Origin: an uncultured Eubacteriales bacterium
GTDB lineage: Bacteria > Bacillota > Clostridia > Peptostreptococcales > Anaerovoracaceae
Assembly (NCBI GenBank): GCA_902795135.1
Contig: CADBJW010000004.1
Location: 62,001-126,000 of the forward strand
Reading direction: 5' to 3'
DNA length: 64,000 nucleotides
Each line of letters begins with the position of its first letter. The first letter of the stretch is position 1. Below are positions 4,943 to 7,068 of the stretch, one piece after another. The position numbers and the translations under genes were made by a program. Under the pieces are notes generated by a model, which searched no databases, had not been told where the DNA came from, and saw nothing but the letters and a program-made list of their open reading frames with translations.

Positions 4943-5254
4943 GTGTTATTCTACATTGAGAGCGTTGTAGTAGGTCTTGCATACGGTTTTGTAGTAGGAT
5001 GCTTGAAGTATGCCCTTCTTTGGAGAAAACTAAAAAAATCAGATAAAAAAATGGAAAGCAGCGCGCTGTATATTCGTATGGGCATCGGATATGCCATTAA
5101 TGTGGCGGCGCTTCTTTTTGTGTTTTTGATGAGAAATATCATGCCTTTGGATTTTGTATTTACGATTGTAGCGACGGCGGTGGCCATGAGCCTGACGGGT
5201 AAGCTGGCACCGATACGGCAAATCGTCAGCCATGTGGAGGAAAAAGAAAGATGA
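4943..5254 (+). CDS. ATP synthase subunit I-like membrane protein (first operon)
   Basis: A small membrane protein of 103 residues with three or four hydrophobic segments and a charged loop (LWRKLKKSDKK). It sits first in an operon whose next genes encode F-ATPase subunits a, c and b. AtpI-type proteins stand at this position in many F-ATPase operons and assist c-ring assembly or Mg2+ handling. I place the start at GTG 4943 because GGGTGG (4932-4937) is 5 bases upstream; an alternative GTG at 4934 leaves no room for a ribosome site. The last codons overlap the start of atpB (ATGA). Identification rests mainly on position, size and hydrophobicity. Confidence 0.6.
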   Translation: MLFYIESVVVGLAYGFVVGCLKYALLWRKLKKSDKKMESSALYIRMGIGYAINVAALLFVFLMRNIMPLDFVFTIVATAVAMSLTGKLAPIRQIVSHVEEKER

Positions 5255-5922
5255 TCCAAGCCTTGCATTCAATAGGAATGACAAACACAATGATCACGAG
5301 CAGCGTAATTACGATTGTAATCTGCATCGTTTCCATTCTCGTCAGCCGCGACCTCAAAATGATGCCGAGCGGTGTGCAGAATATGATCGAGATGGGAATT
5401 GAAAAACTTCATAAATTCTTTAGCGGAGTTATGGGAGAAGATCTCTGCAGAAAGTATTTCCCGCTCGTTGGAACGCTGTTTATCTATATTCTGATCTGCA
5501 ATTATTCGGGGCTTTTGCCTTTTGCAGGACACGCGGACGGATTTCAGGCGCCGACCAGCGACATCAACTTCCCGGCCGGAATGGCGATTCTGGTCATCAT
5601 TTTGGTCCAGGTCATTGGATTCAGAGAGCTGGGCGTGAAGAAAGTCTATAAGCGGATGATCAGCCCATTCGTATTCATGCTCCCTCTGATGATTATGGAC
5701 GAGCTGGCGAAGCCGATTTCCCTGACCTTCCGACTTTACGGAAACACCTTTGGGGATGAAAAGGTCGTGGAAGTGCTGTTTGGACTTTGCCCGGCGATCA
5801 TTCCGGCTATCATGCAGATGCTCGTCGTCCTGCTGGCATTGATCCAGGCACTCGTATTCTCGCTTCTGACCGCGATCTATATCGGAGAAGCCTGTGAAGA
5901 TCACGAGCTGGAAGCACACTGA
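5251..5922 (+). CDS. atpB: F-type ATP synthase subunit a (first operon copy)
   Basis: Subunit a forms the two ion half-channels beside the c-ring. The 223-residue protein has the expected hydrophobic helices. It has the PTSDIN loop (residues ~105-110) and the essential Arg in KPISLTFRLYGNTFGDE, which opposes the c-ring carboxylate. It differs strongly from the second copy at 8692: the second has TADLN and TLACRIFGNILAG at the same places, and little similarity outside them. So this is not a recent duplication. The start overlaps the end of the subunit I gene. It lacks partner alpha, beta, gamma and delta genes in its own operon. Confidence 0.9.
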   Translation: MIQALHSIGMTNTMITSSVITIVICIVSILVSRDLKMMPSGVQNMIEMGIEKLHKFFSGVMGEDLCRKYFPLVGTLFIYILICNYSGLLPFAGHADGFQAPTSDINFPAGMAILVIILVQVIGFRELGVKKVYKRMISPFVFMLPLMIMDELAKPISLTFRLYGNTFGDEKVVEVLFGLCPAIIPAIMQMLVVLLALIQALVFSLLTAIYIGEACEDHELEAH

Positions 5923-6001
5923 TCCTTTGATGGATTCGTAGTTATTGGTTAATGATAAAGTTATATATAAAGCAAAATTTTGTCGAAAGGAGAAACAACA
6001 A

Positions 6002-6229
6002 ATGACGACAGGGTTAATCGCAATTGCAGTAGCAATTACAATCAGTGTATCAACGATCGGTCCGGCCCTTGGTATGGGTAATGCCGGAGGAAAGGCATTG
6101 GAAGGCATGTCACGTCAGCCGGAAATGATGGGACAGCTGCGTACGAACATGATTCTGGCCTTTGCGTTTATGGAATCACTGACGATTTACGGGCTGGTTC
6201 TCGCGTTTATGCTACTGGCAAAGATGTAA
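6002..6229 (+). CDS. atpE: F-type ATP synthase subunit c (first operon copy)
   Basis: The 75-residue hairpin of two membrane helices forms the rotor ring. The polar loop is the standard SRQPE. The ion-carrying Glu lies in helix 2 within [11 protein letters not shown], which resembles proton-type c subunits of cyanobacteria. The helix-1 position that holds Gln in Na+-binding c-rings is Met here ([11 protein letters not shown]), although Ser follows the key Glu. The start at 6002 has AAAGGAG a few bases upstream; a longer in-frame reading from 5945 only adds a non-hydrophobic tail. It is clearly different from the second copy (9455), which has [10 protein letters not shown] around its Glu. Confidence 0.92.
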
Positions 6230-6262
6230 GAGCTTACGGAAATTGTAAAGGAGAAACGAAGC

Positions 6263-6778
6263 ATGTTTGAAGCATTAGGCTTAAACCTGACAGAAATCAT
6301 ATTTGTAATCGTGAATTTTCTTATTCTGGTTTTCGTGCTCAGCAAATTCATTTACAAACCGTTTCTGGCAGCTTTGGACAACAGAAGGAAGAAAATCCAG
6401 GAGACATTTGACGCGGCTGATGCAGTAAGCAGGCGGGCAGATGCCAAGCTGGCCAAGTACGAACGGCGTATCGCCCATGTAGAGGAAGAAAGCCGGGCCA
6501 TCATGAGAGAATCGAAGAAACGTGCAGAGGCTCAGGCTCAGCAGATCATTGACGATGCGACGAAGCAGGCCGGTGAAATCATTGCCCGGGCAGAACGGGC
6601 CGTTGAAATGGAGCGCGTAAAGGCACTCGAAGATATGCGGCAGGAAATTGCAGAACTGGCTTTGCTGGCTGCAGAACAAATTGTTGAAAAGGAAGTTGAT
6701 AAGACCGGACAGGAAGCGATCATCGATGACGTGATCGGTAACGCAAGGAGGACGACATGGCAGACAGTTTCGAATTAA
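6263..6778 (+). CDS. atpF: F-type ATP synthase subunit b (first operon copy)
   Basis: Subunit b is the peripheral stalk that ties the membrane sector to F1. One N-terminal membrane helix (residues ~10-28) is followed by a long, charged coiled-coil helix. From about residue 58 (RADAK) to the end it is by eye about two-thirds identical to the second copy at 9761, including QEIA, AEQIVEKEV and KTGQEAI. The membrane half is only about one-quarter identical. A ribosome site (AAAGGAG) precedes the ATG. The 3' end overlaps the epsilon-like gene by 22 bases. In the complete operon this same junction leads into delta, so delta-alpha-gamma-beta are missing here. Confidence 0.9.
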   Translation: MFEALGLNLTEIIFVIVNFLILVFVLSKFIYKPFLAALDNRRKKIQETFDAADAVSRRADAKLAKYERRIAHVEEESRAIMRESKKRAEAQAQQIIDDATKQAGEIIARAERAVEMERVKALEDMRQEIAELALLAAEQIVEKEVDKTGQEAIIDDVIGNARRTTWQTVSN

Positions 6779-7068
6779 GAGTTGCAACGCCGTCGAATCT
6801 CTTTTACCGCGGAGAAGTGGAACAGGTCATCGTGAACACGCCTGTCGGCCACGAAGGCTTTATGGCCCATCATATGTGGACGTGTAAGCTGCTTGACGCA
6901 GGGAAACTTTGGATCAAAGAAAAAGGTTCCCAGGAAGACGAGTGGAAAATCGCTTCCGCAGCAGGTGGATTCATTGACATCAAAGATGACATCGTTATTT
7001 ACACCGATGTTGTTGAGTGGGATAAGGGGCCTGACAAGCGAAAAGCACGTATTATCAGAACGAAGTAA
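6757..7068 (+). CDS. atpC: F-type ATP synthase epsilon, truncated by a probable frameshift
   Basis: The N-terminal beta-sandwich (residues 1-88) matches the second epsilon at 14706 at about 58 of 88 positions by eye, sharing LFYRGEVE, KLLxxGxLWIKEK and AGGFID. After VVEW the frame goes astray and stops at residue 103, whereas the other copy has 144 residues. In the +1 frame at 7043-7075 the sequence reads KHVLSERSKRN, which aligns with [13 protein letters not shown] of the intact copy. A frameshift at about 7020-7040 is therefore likely, and the C-terminal helical (inhibitory) domain is lost. The remaining domain can in principle still bind gamma and the c-ring. Confidence 0.85.
   Translation: MADSFELRVATPSNLFYRGEVEQVIVNTPVGHEGFMAHHMWTCKLLDAGKLWIKEKGSQEDEWKIASAAGGFIDIKDDIVIYTDVVEWDKGPDKRKARIIRTK

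Follow-up and report, generated by a model that had tools for sequence, protein, structure and literature searches.

We analysed a 64,000-nucleotide stretch (the window; contig CADBJW010000004.1) of the genome of an uncultured Eubacteriales bacterium of the family Anaerovoracaceae, in which a cassette of genes for the membrane sector (Fo) of an ATP synthase, with a gene for subunit ε, stands upstream of a complete ATP synthase operon. F1 and Fo are commonly regarded as a single machine whose parts are inherited together and whose ion-to-ATP ratio is constant within a species. Here, selection has kept a second Fo long after its own F1 genes were deleted; this gut bacterium has two very different motors and a single catalytic head, which probably serves both. 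We consider it likely, from the sequence comparisons set out below, that the cassette functions as a second, alternative Fo and that the cell builds two F1Fo enzymes from one shared F1.

Gene content and origin of the cassette

The cassette (positions 4943–7068, forward strand) reads I1-a1-c1-b1-ε1, without δ, α, γ or β in the same unit of the open reading frame (ORF) list. All its frames are open, the start of a1 overlapping the end of I1 and the start of ε1 that of b1. The chloroplast-like subunit a (a1, 5251–5922; PF00119, 151 bits), the cyanobacterial/chloroplast-like rotor subunit c (c1, 6002–6229, from the ATG of MTTGLIAI; PF00137), the peripheral stalk (b1, 6263–6778; PF00430) and ε1 (6757–7068; PF02823) match the Pfam families ATP-synt_A, _C, _B and DE_N, respectively, above cut-off. 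The AtpI-like, fast-evolving I1 (4943–5254, GTG start at 4943) matches PF03899 below cut-off (21.9 versus 25.1 bits) and has an orthologue in the same place in relatives. Both residues that we take to be essential are present, Arg within FRLYGN of a1 and Glu within FMESLTIYG of c1. With these residues and intact a, c and b frames the cassette has the makings of an Fo sector; with δ, α, γ and β outside the unit, it is no complete F1Fo operon. It is followed by a ureohydrolase gene (7104–8027) and by a complete I2-a2-c2-b2-δ-α-γ-β-ε2 operon ending at 15140; we call the Fo of the cassette type 1 and that of the operon type 2. ORFs and Pfam matches thus bear out the gene order, the absences and the complete downstream operon described in a first-pass annotation of this DNA. 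That annotation also called ε1 truncated. The protein is indeed short (103 residues, β-sandwich only), but shortness as damage is ruled out, since ε is equally short (89–103 residues) in type-1 operons that keep their F1 genes (L039, L040, L042, L047, L061, L064 and L066).

Searches of the assembled genome (2.08 Mb, 91% complete) returned one δ, one γ, one α, one β and two a genes; a third PF00006 match, beside α and β, is Rho. A hidden second F1 set belonging to this Fo, which the annotation had named as a finding that would overturn its reading, was therefore not found in the assembled 91%. The combination of two a genes with one γ is found in two of 247 genomes of the family, the window's own (G000) and G013, and three others have two a and two γ (G063, G069 and G169). 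In a survey of the class (293 genomes at least 95% complete, the window's own being exempted from that threshold), six gave two a rows and one γ row: G000, G507, G533, G308, G306 and G503. A single a gene is read as two stretches in G507 and G533, the second a of G308 is a fragment below cut-off, and δ lies behind each a in G306 and G503 (the latter 9% contaminated, with no second γ row); since the other five are explained in these ways, the window's genome is the only surviving case. The two similar a-c-b-δ contigs of G306, which belongs to another family of the class (L103 and L108, under 3 kb), end just past δ and look like another operon pair with a merged F1 repeat.

We searched for a genes in 61 genomes (the window's own, 36 of the same genus and 24 of the same order) and read the loci around each a gene of the genus, which has 37 members including the window's; many of these assemblies are broken, so that "only one type" holds as far as the contigs reach. 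The cassette together with a complete type-2 operon is present in two members, G000 and G013; the latter, a different species (α 95.6% and MATE 81.4% identical), has it on a 58 kb contig and supplies the related I-a-c-b-ε arrangement that the annotation proposed to look for. In G017, G025 and G033, type 1 continues into δ (and α in G017 and G033) and type 2 stands behind the ureohydrolase on other contigs; the order β-ε1-ureohydrolase-I2-a2 is legible in G025 and G033, and in G016 only the β-ε1-ureohydrolase-type-2 end is visible. G026 and G029 hold two type-1-like operons with an ε1-ureohydrolase link, and in G010 the two types lie on different contigs, type 2 following MATE immediately. The remaining members have only type 2 (18), only a deeper type-1-like operon (5: G009, G021, G022, G030 and G036), nothing but a type-1 a where a contig ends (G024) or no a gene (4). 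Among other records, type-1 operons with F1 genes run through ε1 in L064 and L066 and, where cut, to γ in L058 and to β in L063, while that of L061 has a run of N across c-b-δ.

The tandem genomes (G016, G017, G025, G033; G026, G029) match the window in genes, order, ureohydrolase and neighbours. In contrast to the window lineage, where b1 stands before ε1 without intervening genes, they have, as far as contigs reach, δ after the type-1 b (G017, G025, G033, G026 and G029) and β before ε1 (G016, G025 and G033). No single contig of the genus carries the whole tandem; pieced together from its ends on broken contigs, the ancestral state is implied to have been a complete type-1 operon, the ureohydrolase and a complete type-2 operon. 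Judged against the congeners, which retain these genes, the cassette arose through loss of δ, α, γ and β from the first operon.

The deletion joint (6755–6780) was located by comparison with the borders in L036, where the end of b1 overlaps the start of δ1, and in L039 and L047, where β ends shortly upstream of the ε1 start. In the window and G013, the end of b1 runs into ATGGCAGAC, the start of ε1, where relatives have the start of δ1; hence ε1 now occupies the overlapping slot of δ1, and b1 has gained a TVSN tail from the deletion in both genomes. By these borders, δ1-α1-γ1-β1 was lost between the start codons of δ1 and ε1.

Selection and separate histories of the parts

Between the window and G013, synonymous sites in the cassette are near saturation (proportion of differing synonymous sites, pS, 0.55–0.74). 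In simple pairwise counts on this one species pair, in which synonymous rates (dS) above about 1.5 are rough, c1 has 0 nonsynonymous and 31 synonymous changes, its protein being 100% identical. The ratio of nonsynonymous to synonymous rates (dN/dS) is 0.014 for a1, 0 for c1, 0.026 for b1, 0.064 for ε1 and 0.23 for I1, compared with 0.053 for a2, 0 for c2, 0.014 for b2 and 0.028 for ε2. I1 is fast in an intact pair too (0.127 between the first operons of G026 and G029). Because synonymous sites approach saturation and yet c1 is identical and the ratio of a1 is 0.014, the cassette is constrained rather than decaying. The comparison of a1, c1 and b1 suggested in the first-pass annotation thus reveals strong purifying selection, and neither relaxed selection nor the frame damage in relatives that it held to be telling was seen in G013, the sole other species with the cassette. 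The constraint extends to the C-terminus of b1 and to ε1, whose retention is easiest to understand if an F1 is present. As for the two explanations offered there, the residue of a second operon is right in that central genes retained by congeners were lost, but purifying selection since that loss makes a simple leftover doubtful and agrees with the other explanation, in which the cassette provides the single F1 with a second choice of rotor and stator.

The two Fo are old, separate lineages and no recent duplication. Identity between the copies is 28.6% for a1/a2, 38.7% for c1/c2, 51.5% for b1/b2 and 58.3% for ε1/ε2, and in a quick tree of a (53 rows, with a long-branch warning that chiefly concerns outgroup rows) the branches between the types measure 1.2 and 1.1 changes per column, with a support of 100 in the Shimodaira-Hasegawa-like approximate likelihood-ratio test (SH-aLRT). 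Among solved structures, c1 is nearest to 2wie (72.5 bits), presumably a cyanobacterial ring, before the chloroplast ring 4mjn (66) and the Na+ ring 1yce (48.7). Nearest to c2 are 4bem chain J (129 bits across two hairpins, the better of which gives 73), 3zk1 (85), 4bem chain A (84) and 1yce (82), with chloroplast at 56.5; 4bem, 3zk1 and 1yce are the Na+ rings of Acetobacterium, Fusobacterium and Ilyobacter. The nearest solved relative of a1 is chloroplast a (127 bits), and that of a2 is the Bacillus PS3 subunit (89), with chloroplast a next (81).

The Fo-side and F1-side parts have separate histories. In trees of b (44 of 51 aligned rows kept and seven distant ones dropped; columns are few, so that many forks lack resolution), the 70 N-terminal columns divide by Fo type at 100/100, b1 grouping with type 1, and the 58 C-terminal columns do not; the hypothesis that all 19 type-1 C-termini form one clade fails the approximately unbiased (AU) test (p 0.0038). 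Quick trees divide a by Fo type and leave δ (46 rows) undivided. By these trees, the membrane end of b has moved as a block with a and c, and its F1-facing end, like δ, has a different past. The start of α could be compared in four two-operon genomes (G033, G026, G029 and G010, not G017 and G025), and in three of them the DNA of the two copies matches exactly or comes to do so along the gene (G033, 47 of 47 codons; G026, codons 31–72; G029, codons 121–161), with 41–73% nucleotide identity in δ and the Fo genes between those operon copies. The assemblies of G016, G026, G029 and G033 yielded no α/β nucleotide-binding domain, which is what one would see if a repeat had dropped out during binning. 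Intermediate states exist in the genus: operons of one type or the other by themselves, pairs of operons whose α is homogenised, and two Fo beside a single F1. In G026 and G029 (L040–L043), the two Fo are type-1-like yet different, with c identical at 48 of 75 positions, and the α DNA converges to identity.

Short ε is confined to the inner type-1 group, since among deeper type-1-like operons ε is long in G030 (145 residues) and matches ε2 in G021 and G036. ε1 is without the C-terminal helices, which are reported to inhibit ATP hydrolysis in several bacteria (PMC9317440); in Bacillus subtilis, deleting the C-terminal domain of ε reportedly lowered ATPase and pumping (PMC6692558), and by analogy its loss would not be simply activating in every organism.

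The Na+ ligands given for c of F. nucleatum and I. tartaricus are Gln/Glu32, Glu65, Ser/Thr66, Thr67 and Tyr70 (PMC3692424). Matched by eye, c1 has Met, Glu, Ser, Leu and Tyr at these places and c2 has Ile, Glu, Thr, Ala and Phe, so that neither carries all the ligands of a Na+ c-ring; Phe at the Tyr70 place also occurs in one hairpin of 4bem chain J. Whereas chloroplast and cyanobacterial-type Fo are the nearest solved relatives of c1 and a1, c1 departs from them by Met for the Gln of GxGQG, and the cassette ε by its shortness; c2 departs from the Na+ rings, its nearest solved relatives, in three places, with Ile for Gln/Glu32, Ala for Thr67 and Phe for Tyr70. Gln is kept in more distant type-2-like c (L094 and L098 of the family, L050 of the order), and the sequences suggest that type-2 c may have changed from Na+ to H+ use in the genus. 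Since neither c of the window has the full set of Na+ ligands, both rings may bind H+, and a difference in ion preference, the example given in the first-pass annotation, is weakly supported; ring size would be the likelier difference if both are proton rings. Reported sizes are 11 in F. nucleatum (PMC3692424) and 14 in spinach (PMC6897951), from whose families those of the window are extrapolated.

As to other c sequences, the Na+-site residues Gln, Thr and Tyr are gone from type-2 c in 23 of 23 sequences read in the genus (the window and 22 congener loci); in L094 and L098 Gln and Thr remain, with Phe at the Tyr place. L050 (G056, 5502–6425) holds two adjacent Na+-type c genes, the first ORF being about twice as long and, in the part read, having Gln in place of the ion-binding Glu.

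A probable shared F1 and its alternatives

On the reading that we prefer, tandem complete operons with very different Fo types would have lost δ, α, γ and β from the first, and a1, the c1 ring, a b1 dimer and ε1 would assemble with α3β3γδ from the type-2 operon. The cell would then make one enzyme with a2/c2/b2 and full-length ε2, and another with a1/c1/b1 and short ε1. On selection and history this alternative Fo is well supported; we infer from the sequences that b1 would dock on δ2, that ε1 and c1 would dock on γ2, and that the two enzymes may serve under different conditions. We also count in favour of a shared F1 the single F1 gene set, the recurrence of the arrangement in G013 and, more indirectly, that neither δ nor the b C-terminus divides by Fo type and that the start of α is homogenised in three of four genomes. 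In addition, the F. nucleatum c-ring is reported to have been built into a hybrid F1Fo so that the ring could be purified (PMC3692424).

Several observations weigh against it. Firstly, b1 has 35.5 nonsynonymous changes versus 7.5 in b2, as if its docking were under less constraint, although b in the two operons of the G026/G029 pair has 29 and 18 and the value for b1 is of that order. Secondly, b1 gained its tail at the δ-facing end. Thirdly, the arrangement is present in two genomes only, from one apparent deletion event, and the metagenome-assembled genome is 91% complete. Fourthly, α is not homogenised in G010, which has both types (74.5% nucleotide identity). Lastly, b1 and b2 agree at 34 of 48 C-terminal positions in both cassette genomes, compared with 22, 26 and 21 of 48 in G017, G010 and G033, but b1 of G017 reaches 31 of 48 against b2 of the window, so that the excess owes much to the slow change of b2 in the window, and the AU test is neutral on a joint b1/b2 C-terminal clade (p 0.371). 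Convergence of the b1 C-terminus on δ2 is thus only suggestive, and weak as a proof of docking.

A more specific and quite tentative proposal is a two-gear ATP synthase, in which one F1 would sit on either of two rotors differing in ring size and ε control. The c1 ring (about 14 if like its family), with short ε1 lacking the inhibitory domain, would serve when proton-motive force is low, or for pumping, and the c2 ring (about 11 if like its family), with full-length ε2, when that force is high; the ion-to-ATP ratio would be changed by swapping Fo on a common F1 pool.

Among the alternatives to a separate second Fo, mixed assembly fares best and is still unlikely: b1 would pair with b2, or c1 and c2 would share rings, giving one hybrid Fo with extra subunits. 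The likeness of b1 and b2 in stalk and C-terminus and the two kinds of c in the solved ring 4bem (1 + 9 chains) would permit this, but the cassette is a complete a-c-b set with its own I and ε, the copies of c and a have diverged to the identities given above, the first 30 residues of b agree at 6 of 29 positions, and in congeners each Fo type leads its own δ-containing operon. It is improbable that a1 and c1 form a proton leak or channel that works independently of F1; this would account for the missing F1 partner within the cassette, but a whole-length b1 and ε1 would serve no evident purpose, yet both are under purifying selection. A functionless, decaying remnant of F1 gene loss is strongly disfavoured. 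The deletion did happen, the close relatives G031 and G032 are without I1-a1-c1-b1-ε1 and the ureohydrolase at this place, I1 is fast and b1 is faster than b2; against this, frames are intact in two species near synonymous saturation with c1 unchanged and a1 at a dN/dS of 0.014, the short ε is not damage, and I1 is fast in the intact pair as well. Least credible is that the genome has two complete operons and that its assembly is at fault. Although contigs of tandem genomes mostly break in or near α and β, merging an α-γ-β repeat would not create the b1-ε1 joint, which, judged from relatives' borders, rests on few shared bases only and recurs in a second species on a separate contig.

Beyond the cassette, all on the forward strand, the ureohydrolase of the agmatinase/arginase family between the units matches PF00491 and TIGR01230 (175.5 bits, cut-off 174.3). 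An agmatinase-like ureohydrolase precedes the second ATP synthase unit in G000, G013, G016, G017, G025, G026, G029 and G033, and is missing from this place in G031 and G032. The type-2 operon comprises I2 (8236–8679, from a probable ATG in an ORF open from 8191; Pfam match below cut-off), a2 (8692–9393; PF00119, 167 bits), c2 of the Na+-ring lineage (9455–9712), b2 (9755–10273; PF00430) and the sole F1 gene set found in the genome (10261–15140), with starts at 10261 for δ, 10813 for α, 12389 for γ and 13265 for β, and ε2 at 14697–15140. Scanning for promoters and terminators gave counts close to those expected by chance (9 versus 6.4, and 3 versus 3.5).

Comparison with known systems

A conserved second Fo that borrows an F1 would be a natural test of rotor and stator swapping on one head, of how far the b-δ and γ/ε-c interfaces tolerate it, and of whether bacteria change gear by means of another Fo. 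F1 and Fo genes divided into separate transcription units are described in PMC5709465. The F1-like ATPases of Mycoplasma (PMC3369863) resemble the window in that one sector of the enzyme is encoded away from the standard operon, but as described there the extra clusters hold F1-like subunits, a mirror image of the extra Fo found here. The N-ATPase, likewise a second ATP synthase-type locus beside the normal one in some bacteria, is described as having its own α, β, γ and ε with atpR and no δ (PMC4154653). The cassette has no α, β or γ of its own and is rejected as an N-ATPase by gene order (β-ε first would be expected, with those subunits and atpR) and by scores far below cut-off for TIGR03306 (altF1_A; 115.4 versus 302.1 bits), TIGR03321 (82 versus 224.7) and TIGR03322 (42.8 versus 130.85).

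The nearest precedent comes from Desulfococcus oleovorans, and among open-licence PMC papers we recognised no other near one, nor a report of an Fo-only duplication with ε, a tandem ancestor or a selection test. In the account of PMC4154653, D. oleovorans has a double 0A-0C-0B'-0B set with unduplicated F1 genes, and its a and c are a possible transfer from Thermotogae; Fo-only duplication is thus already in print. Like the window, that species has a second, divergent a-c-b set without extra α, β, γ or δ, with a and c of another lineage. Unlike that duplicate, which the same account describes as ectopic, from one species and without ε, the cassette of the window adjoins the main operon, includes ε, occurs in two species and has its ancestral tandem visible in relatives.

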